The notes under the pieces were generated by a model. That model made no database searches, was not told where the DNA came from, and saw nothing but the letters and a program-made list of their open reading frames with translations. This document shows positions 35,001 through 61,621 of a DNA stretch of 62,021 nt, piece after piece. The DNA is from Methanoculleus sp. MH98A (lineage in GTDB: Archaea; Halobacteriota; Methanomicrobia; Methanomicrobiales; Methanoculleaceae). Location: assembly GCF_000691865.1 (NCBI RefSeq), contig NZ_JMIO01000037.1, positions 1 to 62,021 of the forward strand, given 5' to 3'. Each line of letters starts with the position of its first letter. Positions within the stretch are counted from its first letter, which is position 1. The translations under genes were made by a program, and so were the position numbers.

Positions 35001-35084
35001 AGAATATACTGTCCGTGCGTGTTTGCCGGAGCCTGCACCCGCCGGGTGTCAACGCCTATATGGTTTCGGGGGAGATCGGTGATC

Positions 35085-36716
35085 ATGGGATCCCCGGAGA
35101 GGCAGGTCACGAACAGGGATGTTGCCGAACGGCTCGCGTTCATGGCCCGCCTGCTCGGGATCGCAGGGGAGGATCGATACCGGATCGCCGCTTACGAACG
35201 GGCGGCACGGCAGATCGACCACCTCTCCTTCCCGGTCGCCGGGCTCGACGAGGAGGAACTCACCCGCATCCCGGGGGTAGGAGACCGGATTGCCGGACAG
35301 ATCAGAGAAATCGCCGCCACCGGAACGTTCGGGGAATTAGAAGACCTCGAGGCAGCCATACCCGGATCGGTCGTCGAGCTGCTCGGCGTTGCCGGGGTGG
35401 GGCCCAGGACGCTGCACGTCCTCTACAAGAGGCTCGGCATCCGGACCCTGGACGACCTGGAGCAGGCGGTGAAGGGGCACCGGCTCAGGGCGCTCTCCGG
35501 GTTCGGAGCAAAGACGGAGGAGGCGATCAAGAGAGGCATCGAGCAGTTCCGGCAGAGGTCGAACCGGATGACCCGCCCGCAGGCGGAAGCCGTGCTCGCG
35601 CACGTGGCGGCCGTCCTGCCGGACGGCCGGTATACGGTTGCGGGGAGTTACCGGCGGGGGTCGAGCACCGTGGGGAGGCTTGAGATCGTCGTTGCCGGGG
35701 ATGGAAGCGAAGCCGCAGACCGCATACCCACCGACGCCGGAGTGAACGTCCGGTTCGCCGGGGAAGACCGGTACGGCACGGCGCTCCTCTGCGCCACCGG
35801 CTCGGCCGGGTTCCTGGAAAGGCTTGGGCAGGTGGCGGCCGCGCGCGGCTACCGGCTCACGCCCGACGGCCTCACGGACTCTGCGGGCGGGCGGCTGCAT
35901 GAGTTCGCAAGCGAGGAGGAAGTCTTTTCGTTCCTCGATATGGAGACGATTCCGCCGGAACTGCGCGAGAACAGGGGCGAGATCGAACTCGCCCTCCGGC
36001 ACGCCCTCCCCGGTCTCGTCGATCTATCCGACATCAGGGGCGATCTCCATGCCCACACCACATGGAGCGATGGCCGCCAGTCGCTCGATGATGTGGCGGA
36101 GGCGGGGGATGCAAGGGGCTACGAGTACATCGTGATCACCGACCACTCTTCAAGGGTGCGGCCTGAGGCCCTTGCAAAGCAGCGGGCCGAGATCGAGCGT
36201 GTCAACCAGCGGCACGACTGCCGGCTCCTTGCCGGGAGCGAGGTGGACATCAAAAGCGACGGCACTCTCGGGTACGGGAACAGGATCCTCGCCGACCTCG
36301 ACCTGGTGATCGCCTCGGTCCACTCGGGGTTTTCCCAGGACCTGGACGTCATGACCCGGCGCATCCTCACCGCGATGGAGAACGAGCACGTCGATATCAT
36401 CGGCCATCCCACCGGCCGCCTGCTCGGCCGCAGACCGGCGTATGCCGTCGACCTGGAGCGCGTTATAGCGCACGCGGCGGATACGGGGACGGCCCTCGAG
36501 ATCAACGCATCGCCCCACAGGCTCGACCTTGAGGATATTTATATCTGGCATGCCAAGAAGGAAGGAGTGAAACTGGCTGCAGGAACGGATGCCCATAGAA
36601 TCGGCGAATTTGCAAACATGCGCTACGGAATTCTACTGGCGCGCCGGGGCTGGTGCGCTCCGGACGACGTCCTGAACACCCTCCCTCTATCCGCACTGCT
36701 GGAGTGGACGTCATGA
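35085..36716 (+). CDS. PolX-like protein with degenerate polymerase site and intact PHP domain
   Basis: A 543-residue paralogue of the PolX gene at 15722-17455, with helix-hairpin-helix regions (about 1-160; RIPGVGDRIAGQI, GVAGVGPRTL), a nucleotidyltransferase-like region and a PHP domain (from about 318). The Gly-Ser pair is kept (AGSYRRGSSTVG, 186-197), but the catalytic DVD is replaced by RLE (198-200) and the third Asp by Arg (about 223), so DNA synthesis is unlikely. PHP motifs look intact: GDLHAHTTWSDG, ITDHSS, ASVHSGF, IIGHPTGR and GTDAHR. ATG 35085 follows gggggag. The next gene overlaps its stop (ATGA). Confidence 0.9.
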   Translation: MGSPERQVTNRDVAERLAFMARLLGIAGEDRYRIAAYERAARQIDHLSFPVAGLDEEELTRIPGVGDRIAGQIREIAATGTFGELEDLEAAIPGSVVELLGVAGVGPRTLHVLYKRLGIRTLDDLEQAVKGHRLRALSGFGAKTEEAIKRGIEQFRQRSNRMTRPQAEAVLAHVAAVLPDGRYTVAGSYRRGSSTVGRLEIVVAGDGSEAADRIPTDAGVNVRFAGEDRYGTALLCATGSAGFLERLGQVAAARGYRLTPDGLTDSAGGRLHEFASEEEVFSFLDMETIPPELRENRGEIELALRHALPGLVDLSDIRGDLHAHTTWSDGRQSLDDVAEAGDARGYEYIVITDHSSRVRPEALAKQRAEIERVNQRHDCRLLAGSEVDIKSDGTLGYGNRILADLDLVIASVHSGFSQDLDVMTRRILTAMENEHVDIIGHPTGRLLGRRPAYAVDLERVIAHAADTGTALEINASPHRLDLEDIYIWHAKKEGVKLAAGTDAHRIGEFANMRYGILLARRGWCAPDDVLNTLPLSALLEWTS

Positions 36717-37303
36717 TCTACCGGTTCTACGAGAAGATCCTCCTCCGCGATCTCAGGATGCTTCCGGAGCACATCTGCTTCATGATCACCGAGCAGGATA
36801 TGCTCGATGCTCCCGGCAACCTCTACCTTGCCGCCCAGTGGTGCCGCGACCTCGGGATCGAAAGCGCCATGTTCCACATCAGCACCGGCGACCCCGCCCG
36901 GCTGGAGCGGTGCCTCCCGCGGATTCGCGAGGTATCCTCGATCGCGCGCCTGACCCTGCACTACCGCGACGAAAAGGAGGTCAGCGGCGAAGGCATGGAC
37001 GTGACGGTGGCGATAGGCAAAAGCGGCCGGGAGGAGATCGCCGGCTGCGTGCGAAGGATGGCCGAAGACGGTGTGGATCCGGCATCGGTCGACGAAGACC
37101 TGCTGGAATCGTACCTCACCTTCAACTACGAGCCCGATCTCGTCATCAAGACCGGCGGCGACCACCTGACCGACTTCCTCATCTGGCAATCGGTCTACTC
37201 CGAGCTCTTCTTCCTCGACGTCAACTGGGCGCTGCTCAGGAAAGTGGATTTCCTCCGGGCGCTCAGGGACTTCCAGTCGAGAGCCCGGCGGTTCGGACGG
37301 TAA
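36713..37303 (+). CDS. Degenerate cis-prenyltransferase subunit (NgBR/Nus1-like)
   Basis: The 196-residue protein aligns with undecaprenyl diphosphate synthases but lacks the catalytic N-terminal motif: where active enzymes have Asp-Gly-Asn-x-Arg it has MITEQDML (about 24-31). Its C-terminal half is well kept (IKTGGDHLTDFLIWQS, about 145-160; ELFFLDVNW) and it ends in RRFGR, containing the R-x-G signature (Arg193-Phe194-Gly195). This is the layout of the non-catalytic NgBR/Nus1 subunit. The catalytic partner candidate is the convergent gene at 37307-38086. It is coupled by ATGA to the degenerate PolX gene. Confidence 0.8.
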   Translation: MIYRFYEKILLRDLRMLPEHICFMITEQDMLDAPGNLYLAAQWCRDLGIESAMFHISTGDPARLERCLPRIREVSSIARLTLHYRDEKEVSGEGMDVTVAIGKSGREEIAGCVRRMAEDGVDPASVDEDLLESYLTFNYEPDLVIKTGGDHLTDFLIWQSVYSELFFLDVNWALLRKVDFLRALRDFQSRARRFGR

Positions 37304-37306
37304 CCC

Positions 37307-38086
37307 TCACGAACCCCGGGCCACGCGCTCTTTCAGGCGCATGCGCTGGTCGTAGACCCGCATCGCCCGCAACAGATCGATCTTCCTGAACGCCGGCCAG
37401 AAGGGGGCGCAGAAGTAGACGGCCGACTCGTGACCGTTCGCAAGCCAGGGAAGGAAGTTCGAGGTCCGGTAATCGTTGCCGGTACGGATGATCAGGTCGA
37501 CGGGGGGTATGGGCGCCCCCCGGTTGAGGTGGGCCTCAACGGCCTCCGGGTCGATGGCCGCCGGGTCGATGACACCCTGCCTGACCTCGCCGAGGATCGA
37601 CCGGGCGGCGTGCACGATCTCGTTTCGGCCGCCGTAGGCGAGCGCGATGTTGATGAAGTAATCGCTGTAGTCCCGGGTCGCCTCCTCCGCCGCATCGATG
37701 GTCGCGAGGAGGTCGGCAGGGAGGAGGGATCGATCGCCGATCATCTGCACCCGGATGTGGTTTCTATGCACCCGCTCGTCTTTGAGGATCGCGGCGAACT
37801 TCTCCCGGAAGAGGCGAAAGAGCGACTCAAGCTCGGCGCTGTCCCTGCGGAAATTCTCGGTGGAGAAGGTGTAGAGCGTGACGTGCTGCACGCCGAGCTC
37901 GCACGCCCAATCGAGAACCTGCTCCGTCGCGTCCGCCCCGAGCCGGTGGCCGACCGCCGTATCGAGCCCCTGCTCCCGGGCATACCGGCGGTTTCCATCC
38001 TGGATCACCGCAACGTGCCGGGGAACGTGTTTCACCTGCCACTTCAGGTAACGCTCGTAGAGAGGCTCAATCCCCGATCGCAGCAT
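37307..38086 (-). CDS. uppS: cis-Prenyltransferase (undecaprenyl/polyprenyl diphosphate synthase family)
   Basis: Extends allylic diphosphates with isopentenyl diphosphate in cis, to make polyprenol/dolichol glycosyl carriers. In 259 residues: HVAVIQDGNRRYAREQG (24-40) with catalytic Asp30, TLYTFSTENFRR, ALAYGGRNEIVHAAR, and IIRTGNDYRTSNFLPW. Its C-terminus (RVYDQRMRLKERVARGS) lacks the usual R-x-G signature seen at the end of the neighbouring 36713-37303 product, a split typical of the catalytic subunit of heteromeric enzymes. The start at 38086 overlaps the stop of the radical SAM gene (ATGA). Confidence 0.92.
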   Translation of the reverse strand: MLRSGIEPLYERYLKWQVKHVPRHVAVIQDGNRRYAREQGLDTAVGHRLGADATEQVLDWACELGVQHVTLYTFSTENFRRDSAELESLFRLFREKFAAILKDERVHRNHIRVQMIGDRSLLPADLLATIDAAEEATRDYSDYFINIALAYGGRNEIVHAARSILGEVRQGVIDPAAIDPEAVEAHLNRGAPIPPVDLIIRTGNDYRTSNFLPWLANGHESAVYFCAPFWPAFRKIDLLRAMRVYDQRMRLKERVARGS

Positions 38087-39096
38087 CAGAGCGGTGTCAC
38101 CTCGACCACCATGCCGCCGTTCGGGTAACGCTCGACAACGTACTTCCTGCCCGGCAGCCCGGCACCGTGCTCGGCAAGCACCCACCACGCCATCTCGATC
38201 CGCCCCTCACAGACTGCATACTCATCTTCATCAAAACCCTCCAGGAATCCGTCGACGGCACCCTCCGGCTCGAGGACCCCGTATACGACGGTTCCGTCAT
38301 CCGTCACCTCCTCGAACGGACGCGCAGTATTGGCAGCGATCCGCTTTAACCGTTCCCGTAACTGGACCGAGTCCTTGAAGACCGATGAGCAGAAGTGGAC
38401 TTTCGGGTCGCCGACGAGTTTCTCCGCCCACTGGCGGGCACCCTTCACCGCATTGTGCAGCCCGTCATCGAGCTCGAACCCACGTTCGCGCATGGCAGCG
38501 GCGCAGGTCTCGCCCCACTCCAGCTCGTTGATGTTGAGGAAGTCGAGGAGCGGGAGGGCGGCGGCAAGGTCCTCGATTCCCGGGAGCGACGGCACCTCGA
38601 TGCCGATCAGAAACCCCATCCGCCGGGCGAGGACGGCTGATCCGGCGAAGTCGGTCTCGAGGATCTGCGGCCAGACCTCATGAGGCGGGTGCAGCCGGAG
38701 CTCGTCAACCAGCCCCTGCAGGCGCCGGAGCATGGTTTCGTCCGGCGCAAGGCCGGTGTAGAGGTGGATCTGGTGATCCGGGCCGAAGTGCTCCTTGAGA
38801 GCCCGGCAGTAGTCCACCACCCGCTCGATCTCGAGCAGCGGTTCGCCGCCGGTGACGCCGGTCCCGAGAGCGCTCATGCTCTCCGCAACCTCGATGGCTT
38901 CGGAAGGCGACGAAACCTGCCGTTCGTTTGCAAACACCACGTCCCGACCTTTTCGCTCACGCGAGAGCGGGCAGTACCAGCAGGTGCGGCGACACCGACC
39001 GGTCACGAAAAGGACCATCTTTGCTCCCTGGTGGCAGAGGACGCATCCCGGAGAGAGGAACGGCCCGCCGGGGGATACTCCCGACTCTTGCGACAT
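38086..39096 (-). CDS. Radical SAM protein of unknown function
   Basis: The 336-residue protein has the iron-sulfur motif CRRTCWYCPLS (about 35-45; Cys-x3-Cys-x2-Cys) and a further Cys pair near the N-terminus (GCVLCHQG). GTGVTGGEPLLE is the radical SAM GGE motif that contacts SAM. It resembles pyruvate-formate-lyase-activating-like archaeal proteins; the substrate is unknown. It is coupled to uppS through a 4-bp overlap, so a link with lipid-carrier or translation-related chemistry is possible. The ATG at 39096 is chosen as the first Met. Confidence 0.85.
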   Translation of the reverse strand: MSQESGVSPGGPFLSPGCVLCHQGAKMVLFVTGRCRRTCWYCPLSRERKGRDVVFANERQVSSPSEAIEVAESMSALGTGVTGGEPLLEIERVVDYCRALKEHFGPDHQIHLYTGLAPDETMLRRLQGLVDELRLHPPHEVWPQILETDFAGSAVLARRMGFLIGIEVPSLPGIEDLAAALPLLDFLNINELEWGETCAAAMRERGFELDDGLHNAVKGARQWAEKLVGDPKVHFCSSVFKDSVQLRERLKRIAANTARPFEEVTDDGTVVYGVLEPEGAVDGFLEGFDEDEYAVCEGRIEMAWWVLAEHGAGLPGRKYVVERYPNGGMVVEVTPL

Positions 39097-54913: not shown

Positions 54914-55783
54914 TTGGCAACGTGGAGCGCGCCGGGCAAGGTATTCCTGTTCGGCGAGCATGCAGTGGTCTACGGAAAACCGGGGGTCGCGATGGCGATC
55001 AAACCCCGTGTCTTCGTCACGGTGAGGAAATCCCGCAACCCGACACGTGCGAAGTCGCCCTACATCGACGAGTGTTTCAGGATGATGGGGGTCCGGGGCA
55101 GCGTCTACGTCCACTCCCAGCTCCAGAGTTCGTCGGGGCTCGGGTCGTCGGCCGCGGTGACGGTGGCAACGCTCTCTGCGATCAACGATGAGTTCAACCT
55201 CGGGCACACCCGCGAGTACGTCGCCGAGACGGCGTTCGCCATCGAAAAGAAGGTCCAGAAAGGGCGGGCAAGCCCCACCGACACCTACGTCTGTGCAAAC
55301 GGCGGGATGGTGCTCATCACGGGGAACTCCAAACGGAGACTGCCGCCCGAGAACCTGCAGGTCGTCGTGGGGAACACCCTGGTGCCGCACAGCACCGCGA
55401 AGATGGTGGAGCAGGTCGGGAACCTGCGGCGGAAGCACCCCGAAGTCGCGAATCCGATCCTGGATGCCATCGGGGCCGTGACGCTTGCAGCCCTCCATAA
55501 CATCGGCAACCCGAAAGAACTCGGGCAGTATATGGACATGAACCATGCCCTCCTGGAGGCGCTCGGCGTGGGGCACCCGGTGAGCAGCAAACTCGTGCTT
55601 GCGGCACGGGCAAGCGGGGCCTACGGCGCGAAGATCACGGGGGCCGGAGGCGGCGGGTGCATCATCGCCCTCTGCCCGCGGCGTGCGAAAAGCCGGGTTG
55701 CCGGGGCCATCGAGGCCTGCGAAGGAAGAGCAATCATCACGACGATAGATACGGACGGCGCGAGAAAAGAGAAGCATGACTGA
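54914..55783 (+). CDS. mvk: Mevalonate kinase
   Basis: Phosphorylates mevalonate with ATP, the entry to archaeal lipid synthesis. The 289-residue GHMP kinase has APGKVFLFGEHAVVYGKPGV (about 6-25), the ATP loop SSSGLGSSAAVTVATL (about 72-87), the catalytic Asp/Lys region RASPTDTYVCANGG, and the C-terminal motif KITGAGGGGCIIAL. The start is TTG directly after the MEMO stop. Its end overlaps ipk by 8 bases. Confidence 0.95.
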   Translation: MATWSAPGKVFLFGEHAVVYGKPGVAMAIKPRVFVTVRKSRNPTRAKSPYIDECFRMMGVRGSVYVHSQLQSSSGLGSSAAVTVATLSAINDEFNLGHTREYVAETAFAIEKKVQKGRASPTDTYVCANGGMVLITGNSKRRLPPENLQVVVGNTLVPHSTAKMVEQVGNLRRKHPEVANPILDAIGAVTLAALHNIGNPKELGQYMDMNHALLEALGVGHPVSSKLVLAARASGAYGAKITGAGGGGCIIALCPRRAKSRVAGAIEACEGRAIITTIDTDGARKEKHD

Positions 55784-56534
55784 GAGAGTGGTACTGAAAC
55801 TGGGGGGGAGCGTGATCACCGACAAGTCGGGAGAGTGCGTCATCGATCACGCCCGCCTGCGCGACATTGCGGAGGAACTCGCCGCACACCCAGAGACCGC
55901 TCTCGTGCTCGTCCACGGTGCGGGGTCATGCGGGCATCCCGAGGCCCGGCGTTACCGCATCAACGACGGCCTCACCGGAGATAACGTCCCCGGTGTCTAC
56001 GAGACGCATACCGCCGTCTCGAGCCTGAACGCGGCGGTCGTCGACGCCCTGCGGGACGCGGGGGTCGAGGCGATCGGCATCCACCCTCTCGACCTCGGCC
56101 TTGCCGAAGACGGGCGCCTGGTCTCGTTCGAGACCCGCCACATCGCCGAAATGACGGACCACGGCATTGTGCCCGTGCTGCACGGCGACGTGGTGATGGA
56201 CCGTCTCCGGGGCTCCTGCATCGTCTCGGGCGACCAGCTCGTGACCCGTCTTGCCGCCGCTCTCGCGAGCCGGCGCGTGGGCCTTGCAACGGATGTGACC
56301 GGGGTGCTGCAGAATGGGGTTGTCGTCCCGCGCATCGACCGGAGCACGGTAGAGTCGCTCGATGTCGGCGGATCGGGAAACACCGACGTGACCGGGGGCA
56401 TGCAAGGCAAGATTGCGGAGCTTCTGGCACTGGCCGATGCCGGCATCGATTCACACATCTTCCATGTCTCGAAGATCGGCCGGTTCCTGGACGGCACCGG
56501 GCATGGCGGAACAACGATAACCGCAAAGGAGTAA
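55776..56534 (+). CDS. ipk: Isopentenyl phosphate kinase
   Basis: Makes isopentenyl diphosphate from isopentenyl phosphate, the last kinase of the archaeal mevalonate branch. In 252 residues of amino-acid-kinase fold: VLKLGGSVITDKSG (about 5-18) binds phosphate, and VHGAGSCGHPEA carries the conserved substrate-binding His, with Cys where many members have Phe (GSFGH). VSGDQLVTRLAAAL and DVTGGMQGKIAEL complete the ATP site. It overlaps mvk and is followed 3 bases later by fni. Confidence 0.95.
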   Translation: MTERVVLKLGGSVITDKSGECVIDHARLRDIAEELAAHPETALVLVHGAGSCGHPEARRYRINDGLTGDNVPGVYETHTAVSSLNAAVVDALRDAGVEAIGIHPLDLGLAEDGRLVSFETRHIAEMTDHGIVPVLHGDVVMDRLRGSCIVSGDQLVTRLAAALASRRVGLATDVTGVLQNGVVVPRIDRSTVESLDVGGSGNTDVTGGMQGKIAELLALADAGIDSHIFHVSKIGRFLDGTGHGGTTITAKE

Positions 56535-56537
56535 ACC

Positions 56538-57590
56538 ATGAAGAAAGAGACCGCCACGTCCTCGAGAAAACGGGATCACCTGCAGATATGCTGCGACCAG
56601 CCCGTCGAGGCCGGCGACGCCGGATTCGGGGACGTGCGCCTGGTTCATAACGCTCTTCCTGAGTGCGATATGGACGCGATCGAGACGAAAACACGGTTCC
56701 TCGGTAGAGCACTCGGCTCCCCTCTCTTCATTGCAGCGATGACCGGAGGACATCCGGATACCCTCGAGGTGAACCGGCGGCTGGCACGTGCCGCCGAACG
56801 GTATAACCTCGGCATGGGTGTCGGTTCTCAGCGAGCGGCACTGGAGAAGCCCGAACTGGAGGGAAGTTTCACCGTCGTGCGGGAGGAAGCGCCGCATGCG
56901 TTCCTCTGCGCGAACCTGGGAATCATCCAGCTCCGCGACCACGGCATTGAGTGGGCGGAGCGGGCTGTCGAGATGATCGATGCACAGGCGATCGCCATCC
57001 ATATCAATTCGCTTCAGGAAGCGATTCAGCCGGAAGGCGATCACAACGCAGAGGGGTGCATCGAAGCGCTGCGCAACCTCTGCAACGAGTTCTCCTACCC
57101 CGTCATCGTGAAGGAGACGGGTTCCGGCATATCGGCCGGAACCGCAAGGGTTATCCGGGGTGCGGGAGCAAGCGCCATCGATATCGGGGGCTACGGAGGC
57201 ACGTCGTGGGCGAAGATAGAACGCCTGCGGGCGAGCGGCTCCGAACTCGCCGATCTCGGAGAGGCATTCCTCTCGTGGGGCATACCGACGGTGGTGAGCC
57301 TCCGCGAGGTGCGGACGGCAGGAAGCCCGATCATCGCGACGGGCGGACTGCGGTCGGGGATCGATATCGCGAAAGCCGTTGCTCTCGGGGCGGACCTCGG
57401 GGGCATGGCGCTCCCTCTCTTGAGACCGGCCATGGAGAGCGATGATACTCTCTCTGCGGCTATCGAGGCGATGCACCGCGAACTTCGCGTGGCGATGTTC
57501 CTGACGGGATCCAGGTCTATAGCGGATCTCCGGCACGCCAGGACGTATATAACCGGCCTAACCCGGCAAATGATTGAAAACAGCGATTAA
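56538..57590 (+). CDS. fni: Type 2 isopentenyl-diphosphate isomerase
   Basis: An FMN- and NADPH-dependent enzyme that interconverts isopentenyl and dimethylallyl diphosphate. The 350 residues form a TIM barrel: RKRDHLQICCDQPVEA (start), PLFIAAMTGGHPDTLEVNRR (about 55-74), MGVGSQRAALE, HINSLQEAIQPEGDHN with the catalytic Gln, IVKETGSGIS, DIGGYGGTSWAKIE and ATGGLRSGIDIAKA (FMN phosphate). Part of the mvk-ipk-fni-rnj-idsA run. Confidence 0.96.
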   Translation: MKKETATSSRKRDHLQICCDQPVEAGDAGFGDVRLVHNALPECDMDAIETKTRFLGRALGSPLFIAAMTGGHPDTLEVNRRLARAAERYNLGMGVGSQRAALEKPELEGSFTVVREEAPHAFLCANLGIIQLRDHGIEWAERAVEMIDAQAIAIHINSLQEAIQPEGDHNAEGCIEALRNLCNEFSYPVIVKETGSGISAGTARVIRGAGASAIDIGGYGGTSWAKIERLRASGSELADLGEAFLSWGIPTVVSLREVRTAGSPIIATGGLRSGIDIAKAVALGADLGGMALPLLRPAMESDDTLSAAIEAMHRELRVAMFLTGSRSIADLRHARTYITGLTRQMIENSD

Positions 57591-57617
57591 CAACGGAAAA
57601 CTCTACAAGGAGGCTAC

Positions 57618-58955
57618 ATGGATATTGAGATCATAGCAGTGGGCGGATATAACGAAGTCGGCAGAAATATGACTGCCGTCCGCTGCGGAAAAGAGATTGT
57701 CATCTTTGATATGGGTCTTAGACTCGACCAGGTGATGATCCACGAGGATGCTGATATCGAGAATATGCATTCCCTGGACCTGATCGAGATGAAGGCCATT
57801 CCTGATGACACCATCATGAATGCGGTCGAGGGGAGCGTCAAGGCTATCGTCTGTTCGCACGGACACCTTGACCATATCGGTGCGATCCCGAAACTGGCGC
57901 ACCGCTACAACGCCCCGATCATCAGCACGCCCTACACCTCGGAACTGATCAGGCAGCAGATCGCAGGCGAACAGAAGTTCGGGGTGAACAACAAGCTCTT
58001 TGCCCTGAAAGCCGGGCAGCGCTATACCATCTCCCCGCACCTGACACTTGAGTTCGTGCGTGCCCAGCACTCGATCATCGACACCATCTTTCCGGTCCTG
58101 CACACGCCGCGGGGCGCGGTCGTCTACGCAAACGACTTCAAACTCGACCGGACGCCGGTGCTCGGGGAGCCGCCGGACTTCGCCCGACTGCGGCAGATCG
58201 GGAAGGAGGGCGTCATCGCTCTCATCACGGAGAGTGTCAACATCGCCGACAAGGGGCGCTGCCCGAGCGAGAAGATCGCGCGGGATCTGGTGCGGGACAC
58301 CATCACCAGTTACGAGGACGACAAGAGTGCTCTCTTCGTCTCGACGTTCTCGTCGCACATCTCCCGTGTGAAGACCATCGCCGAATGTGCCCACGAGATC
58401 GGCAGAAAGCCGGTCCTGCTCGGGCGGTCGATGGAGCGCTACAGCTCGGCGGCCGAACAGCTCAAACTGGTCGGGTTCCCCGAGTCGCTCTCGATGTTCG
58501 GCAACCGCCGGACCGTTGATAGGACACTGCGGCGGATCATGAAGACCGGGAAGGACAAGTTCCTCCCGATCGTCACCGGCCACCAGGGCGAGTCGGGCGC
58601 CATCCTCACGAGGATCGTGATGGGCGATACTCCCTACAAGCTCGAGAAAGGCGACAAGATCCTCTTCTCGGCGAAGGTGATCCCGAACCCGATGAACTAC
58701 GGGCAGCGCTACCTGGTCGAGGCCCGTGCGAAGATGGCGGGCGTGCGGATCTTCGACGAACTGCACGTCTCCGGCCACGCCTACCGGGAGGACCACTACG
58801 AGTTCCTCCACCTCTTGAACCCGCAGCACGTCATTCCGTCGCACGGCGATATCGGAATGACCGGCGAGTACGCGAAGTTCGCGGAGGAGATCGGGTATAC
58901 GCTCGGCAACGACCTCCACATCATGAGGAACGGAAAGAGTATCCTGATAAAGTAG
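57618..58955 (+). CDS. rnj: RNase J family ribonuclease
   Basis: A metallo-beta-lactamase/beta-CASP ribonuclease, usually a 5'-3' exonuclease for mRNA decay in euryarchaea. The 445-residue product has GGYNEVGRNMTAV (about 8-20), metal motif SHGHLDHIGA (about 80-89), later ligands AQHSIIDT and YANDFKLD, and the beta-CASP end motifs VSGHAYREDHYEF and VIPSHGDIGM. aaggaggct precedes the ATG. Its place inside an isoprenoid gene run is conserved in related methanogens as far as I recall. Confidence 0.95.
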   Translation: MDIEIIAVGGYNEVGRNMTAVRCGKEIVIFDMGLRLDQVMIHEDADIENMHSLDLIEMKAIPDDTIMNAVEGSVKAIVCSHGHLDHIGAIPKLAHRYNAPIISTPYTSELIRQQIAGEQKFGVNNKLFALKAGQRYTISPHLTLEFVRAQHSIIDTIFPVLHTPRGAVVYANDFKLDRTPVLGEPPDFARLRQIGKEGVIALITESVNIADKGRCPSEKIARDLVRDTITSYEDDKSALFVSTFSSHISRVKTIAECAHEIGRKPVLLGRSMERYSSAAEQLKLVGFPESLSMFGNRRTVDRTLRRIMKTGKDKFLPIVTGHQGESGAILTRIVMGDTPYKLEKGDKILFSAKVIPNPMNYGQRYLVEARAKMAGVRIFDELHVSGHAYREDHYEFLHLLNPQHVIPSHGDIGMTGEYAKFAEEIGYTLGNDLHIMRNGKSILIK

Positions 58956-58965
58956 GAGAGAGTGC

Positions 58966-59931
58966 ATGACGACGCTTGAAGACTACCTGGAGATGAATAC
59001 CGAGCGGATAGACAAGGCGCTCCACCGTTACTTCGGAGATGTCCACGGCGACCTCTTCCGGGCGAGCGCCCACCTGCTGCTTGCGGGCGGCAAGCGCCTC
59101 CGCCCGGCGGTCGTCATCCTCGCTGCGGATGCGGTGAGAAAGGGGAGCTCCGACGACCTGCTCCCGGCGGCCCTTTCGCTCGAACTGACCCACAACTTCA
59201 CCCTCATCCACGACGACATCATGGACGGCGACGCCGCCCGGCGCGGCGTGCCGACGGTGCATACGGTCTGGGACGAGCCGACGGCGATTCTTGCCGGGGA
59301 CGTCCTCTACGCGAAGGCGTTCGAGTTCATCTGCTTCTCGGAAGCCGCGGACGCCGCCAAGATCCGGGCGGTGAAGATGCTTGCCCGGACGTGCACCGAT
59401 ATCTGCGATGGGCAGAGCATGGACATGGCGTTCGAGAAGCGCGACGACGTCCTGGAGATGGAGTACCTGGAGATGGTCAGCAAGAAGACCGGCGTCCTCT
59501 ACGGGGCATCCGCCGCCATCGGCGGAATCCTTGCCGGAGCGAGTCCCGTCCAGGCCGACGCCCTCTACCAGTACGGGGTGAACAGCGGTATCGCGTTCCA
59601 GATCCAGGACGATCTCATCGATCTCCTTGTGAGCAGCGAAGCGAGCGGCAAGGACCGGGCGTCGGACATCCGGGAAGGGAAGCAGACCCTGATCGCCATC
59701 CGGGCACGCGAGAAGGGGATCGACCTCGCCCCGTACCGGAGAGAACTCTCCGGTGCCGAGATCGACGATCTGATCACCCGGCTCCGGGAGGCCGGGGTCA
59801 TCGACCAGGTCAGGGCGGTCGCCGTCGAACGGGCCGCCGTCGCGAAACAGGCGCTCTCGGTTCTCCCGGACACGGAGGAGAGGCGGCTTCTTGAGGAGAT
59901 CGCCGATTTCTTCATCGCTCGAGGCAACTGA
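58966..59931 (+). CDS. idsA: Geranylgeranyl/farnesyl diphosphate synthase
   Basis: A trans-prenyltransferase making the C15/C20 diphosphates for archaeal ether lipids. In 321 residues: LLLAGGKRLRPAVVILAADA (about 37-56), first Asp-rich motif IHDDIMDGD (about 83-91), second motif FQIQDDLIDL (about 210-219), and GKDRASDIREGKQTL. ggagagagtg precedes the ATG at 58966. Its product is the likely primer for the cis-prenyltransferase pair at 36713-38086. Confidence 0.95.
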   Translation: MTTLEDYLEMNTERIDKALHRYFGDVHGDLFRASAHLLLAGGKRLRPAVVILAADAVRKGSSDDLLPAALSLELTHNFTLIHDDIMDGDAARRGVPTVHTVWDEPTAILAGDVLYAKAFEFICFSEAADAAKIRAVKMLARTCTDICDGQSMDMAFEKRDDVLEMEYLEMVSKKTGVLYGASAAIGGILAGASPVQADALYQYGVNSGIAFQIQDDLIDLLVSSEASGKDRASDIREGKQTLIAIRAREKGIDLAPYRRELSGAEIDDLITRLREAGVIDQVRAVAVERAAVAKQALSVLPDTEERRLLEEIADFFIARGN

Positions 59932-59935
59932 TACC

Positions 59936-61621
59936 ATGGACGCCGATATCGAGCATCTGCTCTTTATCTACGCTCTGCAGAACGCGGTGAAGCACGATAG
60001 CGCCCCGAAGAGCGGGACGGTCATCGGCACGGTGCTCGGCAAGCACCCCGAGTTCCGGAGCCGTGCACGGGAGATCGGGGCGCTCGCGGGGAAGGCGGTC
60101 GCACAGGTGGCGCAGATGAGCGCGGCGGAGAGGAAGAGCCGGCTCAAAGAACTCGCGCCCGAACTTCTCGCGGAACTCACCGAGACGCACGAACACGTCC
60201 GGGAACTCCCCGCCCTCGAGGGGGCGGAGAACGGCGTGGTGATGCGGTTCGCGCCGAACCCGAGCGGGCCGCTCCACCTCGGGCATGCCCGCGCCTCCAT
60301 CTTAAACGACTACTACGTCAAACGCTACGGCGGCCGGTACGTTCTCCGCGTCGAGGATACCGACCCGAAACGGGTCGATCCCGATGCATACGCGATGGTG
60401 CTCGAGGACGTCGAGTGGCTGGGGCTCGGGATCACCGATATCGTCTACCAGAGCGACCGCCTTGATATCTACTACGATTGGTGCAGGAAACTCATCGAAC
60501 TCGGCGGCGCCTACGTCTGCGTCTGCGACTCCGAACGCTTCCGCGAACTCAAACTCAAGGGGAAGGCATGCCCCTGCCGGGAGAGGACCGTGGAGGAGAA
60601 CCTGGAACTCTGGCAGCAGATGCTTGATGGGGAGTTCTACGAGGGCGACGCGACCGTCCGGGTGAAGACGGATCTCGCCCACCCCGATCCGGCGATGCGG
60701 GACTACTCCGCGATGCGGATCGTGAACGCGCCTCTCCACCCGCGGGTGGACGCTACGGTCTTTCCGCTGATGAACTTCTCGGTCGCGGTGGACGACCACC
60801 TCCTCGGGATCACCCACGTCATCCGCGGCAAGGACCACATCGCGAACACGAGACGGCAGCGCTACATCTTCGACTACTTCAACTGGAAGCCGCCGGTTTA
60901 CCGCCACTACGGCCGGATGGGGATATCGGGCGTCGTCCTCTCGACGTCGGGGATGCGCGAAGGGATTAAGAGCGGTCTCTACACCGGCTGGGACGACATC
61001 CATCTCGGGACGATGCGGGCGATCGCGCGCCGCGGCATCGAGCCGGAGGCCGTCCGGAACGCCATGGTCGATATCGGGATCGGGGAGACCGACATATCGT
61101 TCTCGTGGGAGAACCTCTACTCCCGGAACAAGGAACTCGTCGATCCAAGGGCGAACCGCTACTTCTTCGTCCCCGACCCGGTCGAGGTGACCGTCGAGGG
61201 CGCCCCGCGCCGCGAGGCCCACGCAGCCCTCCATCCGAACGATCCCTCCCGGGGGGTCCGCACCCTTATCGCCGAGGGAGCGATCCTCCTCCCGCGGGCG
61301 GATATCGAAGGGCGGAGCATGGTCCGCCTAAAAGACCTCTACAACGTGAAGATCGCGTGGGACGGCAATACGCCGCGGGTATCCTACGCGGGCGACTCGC
61401 TCGAGGAGGCCCGGCGCGAGAAGGCGCCGATCATCCAGTGGCTGCCGGCGGACGCGAAACTCCCCTGCATACTTCTCCGGCAGGACGAGAACCTCGAAGG
61501 GTTCTGCGAGCCGCCGGTCGCCGGGGAGACCGGCAGCGTCGTCCAGTTCGAGCGGATCGGGTTTGCCCGGATCGATTCGACGGACGGCGGCCGGGTGAGC
61601 GCCTACTTCGCGCACCGGTGA
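59936..61621 (+). CDS. gltX: Glutamyl-tRNA synthetase (archaeal type)
   Basis: A non-discriminating archaeal GluRS that charges tRNA-Glu and, together with an amidotransferase, supplies Gln-tRNA. The 561-residue product has an N-terminal helical extension (about 1-95), the HIGH-type motif in FAPNPSGPLHLGHARAS, Zn/acceptor region CVCDSERFRELKLKGKACPC, the class-defining VVLSTSGMREGI in place of KMSKS, and a beta-barrel anticodon domain of the GlnRS type. ATG 59936 lies 4 bases after the idsA stop. Confidence 0.96.
   Translation: MDADIEHLLFIYALQNAVKHDSAPKSGTVIGTVLGKHPEFRSRAREIGALAGKAVAQVAQMSAAERKSRLKELAPELLAELTETHEHVRELPALEGAENGVVMRFAPNPSGPLHLGHARASILNDYYVKRYGGRYVLRVEDTDPKRVDPDAYAMVLEDVEWLGLGITDIVYQSDRLDIYYDWCRKLIELGGAYVCVCDSERFRELKLKGKACPCRERTVEENLELWQQMLDGEFYEGDATVRVKTDLAHPDPAMRDYSAMRIVNAPLHPRVDATVFPLMNFSVAVDDHLLGITHVIRGKDHIANTRRQRYIFDYFNWKPPVYRHYGRMGISGVVLSTSGMREGIKSGLYTGWDDIHLGTMRAIARRGIEPEAVRNAMVDIGIGETDISFSWENLYSRNKELVDPRANRYFFVPDPVEVTVEGAPRREAHAALHPNDPSRGVRTLIAEGAILLPRADIEGRSMVRLKDLYNVKIAWDGNTPRVSYAGDSLEEARREKAPIIQWLPADAKLPCILLRQDENLEGFCEPPVAGETGSVVQFERIGFARIDSTDGGRVSAYFAHR

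Follow-up and report, generated by a model that had tools for sequence, protein, structure and literature searches.

Heteromeric cis-prenyltransferases (cPTs) are an enzyme kind already known from eukaryotes and from Methanosarcina mazei. In the human enzyme, the inactive subunit NgBR (NUS1) dimerizes with DHDDS, and its C-terminal R-x-G tail reaches across the dimer interface into the active site of DHDDS, where D34 holds Mg2+; a helix-turn-helix domain of DHDDS makes this enzyme a tetramer (PMC7573591). The yeast Rer2/Nus1 pair has the same division, i.e., a subunit with an Asp-Gly-Asn (DGN) motif but no R-x-G and an inactive subunit with the C-terminal motif. Homodimeric bacterial UppS has the same fold and catalytic residues, but both features are found in one chain. 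In M. mazei, as related in PMC8131916 from Emi et al. 2019, MM_0618 and MM_1083 constitute a heteromeric cPT that makes C45-50 and needs both subunits. Another archaeal cPT, M. mazei MM_0014 (which makes C25-40), is a distant paralogue.

We analysed a 62,021-nucleotide stretch of the Methanoculleus sp. MH98A genome (contig NZ_JMIO01000037.1; here called the window), for which an earlier note had proposed a split cPT encoded by two adjacent convergent genes. The two genes probably encode the subunits of one heteromeric cPT (probability, about 0.93). This is by far the best reading because of the phylum-wide complementary loss of motifs, the near-obligate co-occurrence of the genes, the matches to DHDDS and NUS1, and the M. 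mazei example. The Methanosarcina enzyme mentioned in the note is the one published as MM_0618/MM_1083, according to PMC8131916. It is likewise a two-subunit archaeal cPT, from the same phylum, and our survey of that phylum suggests that the present pair is orthologous to it.

Two predicted subunits with complementary motifs

The catalytic, DHDDS/UppS-like subunit (259 amino acids; 37307..38086, minus strand) matches Pfam family PF01255 over profile positions 1 to 216 of 219 (3.1e-66). Human DHDDS is its best PDB match (5e-44), with MM_0014 also matched (E value, 5e-15), and its top fold match is 6w2l_A (human DHDDS), with bacterial UppS chains close behind. No MM_0014-type paralogue was found in the source genome. 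The protein has the motif VIQDGNRRYA and keeps D30-G31-N32, R34, H47, F74, N78, R81, R201, R207, and S209, positions taken from an alignment with E. coli UppS (D26, N28, R30, H43, F70, N74, R77, R194, R200, and S202); this is the full residue set of an active cPT. The C-terminus reads RMRLKERVARGS and contains no R-x-G. Sequence and alignment thus agree with the earlier description of this product as retaining Asp30 and lacking the R-x-G end. Only about 10 residues follow the cPT domain and no C-terminal helix-turn-helix tetramerization domain is present; the median length of this tail is 10 residues in the order Methanomicrobiales versus 53 for the sampled members of the phylum outside the order.

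The degenerate, NgBR/Nus1-like subunit (196 amino acids; 36713..37303, plus strand) matches PF01255 at 1.2e-23 over profile positions 107 to 219 of 219, i.e., the C-terminal half only, and both matches exceed the curated cut-off. In line with a Methanoculleus-like genome, the protein shares 96% identity with its counterpart in Methanoculleus sediminis. The protein ends in RARRFGR, with an intact R-x-G (R193 and G195), and has no Asp-Gly-Asn. The substrate-binding residues are also altered, a lysine standing at the R194 position and the R200 equivalent being missing (UppS numbering). The earlier note was right about these motifs, but its description of the product as the C-terminal half of the family was too narrow. 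Residues 27 to 219 of human NUS1 align with residues 12 to 196, nearly the whole length, and the AlphaFold model has a whole but shortened cPT domain, weak at residues 151 to 164. A diverged N-terminal half is therefore still present, and identity as a bare C-terminal half was ruled out by the NUS1 alignment and the model. Fold matches of the model are moderate (TM, about 0.6 to 0.7) and include NUS1 chains, which rank side by side with chains of DHDDS and of bacterial UppS. The most conserved parts of the protein are R-x-G and the C-terminal half, the half that forms the subunit interface in cPTs.

The likeness to NgBR/DHDDS pairs is therefore upheld at both ends, by the best PDB match of the catalytic protein and the end-to-end NUS1 alignment of the degenerate one. 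Relative to DHDDS/NgBR, however, the degenerate subunit lacks the N-terminal membrane domain and the catalytic subunit lacks the C-terminal helix-turn-helix. A further partition between the subunits, of a Glu213-type residue, was considered and dropped, as the alignments disagree by two positions.

The complementary loss was examined by column counts in 139 degenerate and 141 catalytic unique homologues. The catalytic aspartate is present in 140 of the 141 catalytic sequences (the remaining one has a gap) and in none of the degenerate ones, while the arginine of R-x-G occurs in 137/139 degenerate sequences (the exceptions have one T and one K) and no catalytic sequence combines R with G in the alignment columns of R-x-G. 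A lone DGN string among the degenerate sequences sits in a variable loop. R-x-G look-alikes (such as ARRG) in some catalytic tails were rejected, being shifted in position and lacking conservation. A UppS homodimer has DGN and R-x-G together in each chain, which is true of neither product here; each lacks one set, leaving a DGN chain without R-x-G and an R-x-G chain without the catalytic aspartate, as in enzymes of the DHDDS/NgBR type. The complementary loss claimed earlier is thus borne out; it is not due to chance and holds across these homologues. A PF01255 search of the whole genome returned these two products only. Since both homologues lie at this locus, a complete third cPT elsewhere in the genome was ruled out.

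Distribution and gene order in the phylum

The survey across Methanomicrobiales proposed in the earlier note found PF01255 in 144 of 150 genomes, nearly all with exactly two matches, and the degenerate-protein profile matched 143/150. In the phylum as a whole, this profile matched 287 of 295 genomes, and 233 of the 235 of good quality, at a threshold that also admits catalytic subunits. For that reason, a cleaner count is that of 26 genomes from 25 families outside the order, all 26 of which have one full-length and one C-terminal-half PF01255 match. Both cPT genes are absent from a few genomes, including five of family f12 (G155, G164, G173, G182, and G189; completeness up to 91%), in which there is no PF01255 match. 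This family was considered as a lineage missing the degenerate subunit alone, which would provide a reciprocal test, and was ruled out, being without any cPT match.

A tree built from the C-terminal half that both kinds share has one branch dividing catalytic from degenerate sequences (support, 99/90; to be read with caution, as only 112 columns were available). Within the one archaeal phylum that tree and survey covered, this fits a single catalytic/degenerate split preceding the radiation of the phylum. A scan of genome contigs returned Methanomicrobiales-type loci only. A few genomes also have a third, distant cPT paralogue ending in DVTLGG or DITLGG (L168, 1492-2409; L199, 1489-2187), which stands clearly apart from both subunits in the tree.

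The stop codons of the two genes, TAA on the plus strand and TGA on the minus strand, are separated by 3 bp (37304..37306). The ATG starts at 36713 and 38086 agree with aligned relatives, whereas longer GTG open reading frames do not. Among the 139 genomes of the order with both genes, 127 have them on the same contig, and 124 of these 127 pairs are convergent; by domain coordinates, the two genes are at most 100 bp apart in 72 cases and at most 2 kb apart in 111. Outside the order, 11 families (f7, f11, f13, f16, f17, f19, f21, f23, f27, f29, and f33) also showed convergent pairs, separated by no more than about 3 kb. The adjacent convergent layout noted earlier is accordingly real but not peculiar to this genome, being the rule in the order and recurring in no fewer than 11 further families; the phylum also has several families, by contrast, whose two cPT genes lie far apart. 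In one family of the order (L005, L006, L007, L009, L013, L030, and L032), the convergent 3' ends overlap by about 20 bp.

Proposed mechanism and competing explanations

The residues are partitioned as in DHDDS/NgBR, which makes the mechanism of that enzyme the best explanation here. Substrate binding (allylic primer and isopentenyl diphosphate), Mg2+ binding, and the sole active site would fall to the 37307-38086 protein. The 36713-37303 protein, its own active site lost, would dimerize with it through the ordinary cPT interface and, in the manner of NgBR with DHDDS, reach with its C-terminal R-x-G into the active site of its partner. The short catalytic tail and the lack of a membrane segment on the degenerate subunit make a heterodimer likelier than a tetramer. 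The product is most likely a polyprenyl diphosphate precursor of a glycosyl carrier, which would be converted into a dolichol-type sugar carrier for glycosylation of the S-layer and other proteins; two STT3-family matches in the genome exceed the cut-off. Binding, activity, product, and product length are in this way predicted from the sequences and the described enzymes.

Alternatively, the catalytic protein could be active as a homodimer that does without R-x-G, with a decaying or repurposed paralogue in the degenerate protein. Human DHDDS alone is indeed a weakly active homodimer (PMC6921004), but the complex is about 400 to 500 times faster (PMC6921004, PMC7573591). Moreover, the two archaeal genes co-occur almost constantly, the degenerate protein keeps exactly the motif that is missing from its partner, and purifying selection is stronger on the degenerate than on the catalytic gene (median dN/dS among close relatives, 0.087 versus about 0.18). 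A dN/dS value of about 0.09 indicates a working gene under strong purifying selection, and together with the conservation it rules out a decaying pseudogene. We consider the homodimer very improbable. Less probable still is a degenerate protein that binds the catalytic subunit as a regulator or membrane anchor with no role in the active site. In the human enzyme, NgBR does indeed bear the membrane anchor as well (PMC7573591), but the 196-residue protein consists of cPT domain from its very start and has no separate membrane segment, and its conservation peaks at R-x-G and in the interface-forming half. Least probable of all is that the degenerate protein serves some other function, one with no relation to the catalytic gene next to it. 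The overlap of the degenerate start with the stop of an upstream PolX gene might point that way, but families in which PolX is not adjacent still have both cPT genes, in convergent order.

The heteromeric cPT would thus pass from a single report in M. mazei to what is apparently the standard sugar-carrier-lipid enzyme of a whole archaeal phylum. In a literature search whose reach did not include Emi et al. 2019, we found no report of a phylum-wide distribution or a conserved convergent order; the near-universality in the phylum, the conserved order, and the catalytic subunit without a tetramerization domain are possibly new. The archaeal pair also raises a testable question about the origin of the eukaryotic pair. 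A tentative and rather unlikely answer is that one split before the radiation of the phylum gave an ancestral convergent pair that was the source of, or had a common source with, eukaryotic DHDDS/NgBR. If the split was single and ancestral, Methanomicrobiales would hold a minimal heterodimer with neither tetramerization domain nor membrane anchor. Such a small pair, with neither anchor nor additional domain, would be well suited as a model of the human enzyme, mutations of which cause retinitis pigmentosa, epilepsy, and glycosylation disorders.

Neighbouring genes

The two cPT genes are not in one operon, and each is coupled to another gene. Upstream of the degenerate gene lies a gene for a PolX-like protein with a PHP domain (35019..36716, plus strand; NCBIfam PolX, 4.9e-128), whose stop codon overlaps the degenerate start in an ATGA (36713..36716, plus strand), making translational coupling likely. 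Comparison of the palm motif indicated that the PolX proteins of Methanoculleus-like genomes have lost the polymerase carboxylates, with GRLEIV (as here) or GRIEIV instead of GDIDIV, while the metal-ligand motifs of the PHP domain look intact. The dead PolX with which the degenerate subunit had been said to be co-translated is therefore real, as is the overlap, but the loss is restricted to some lineages. Many relatives keep GDIDIV and have the same gene order, so that the dead PolX is a lineage-specific feature outside the mechanism.

Upstream of the catalytic gene, a radical-SAM protein is encoded (38086..39096, minus strand; PF04055), for which no specific NCBIfam family scored above the cut-off. 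Its stop overlaps the catalytic start in a TGATG (38084..38088, minus strand), and translational coupling is again likely. The degenerate gene is immediately preceded by PolX in 90/139 loci of the order and the catalytic gene by the radical-SAM gene in 116/128, counts that include close relatives and repeated loci as well as some loci too short to show the neighbour.

A trans-prenyl synthase, which could supply the primer, is encoded about 21 kb from the pair in the same window. It belongs to an isoprenoid gene run (54914-61621, plus strand) encoding a GHMP kinase, an amino-acid-kinase-fold protein (probably isopentenyl phosphate kinase), an FMN-dependent protein (probably type 2 isopentenyl diphosphate isomerase), RNase J, the trans-prenyl synthase, and Glu-tRNA synthetase.
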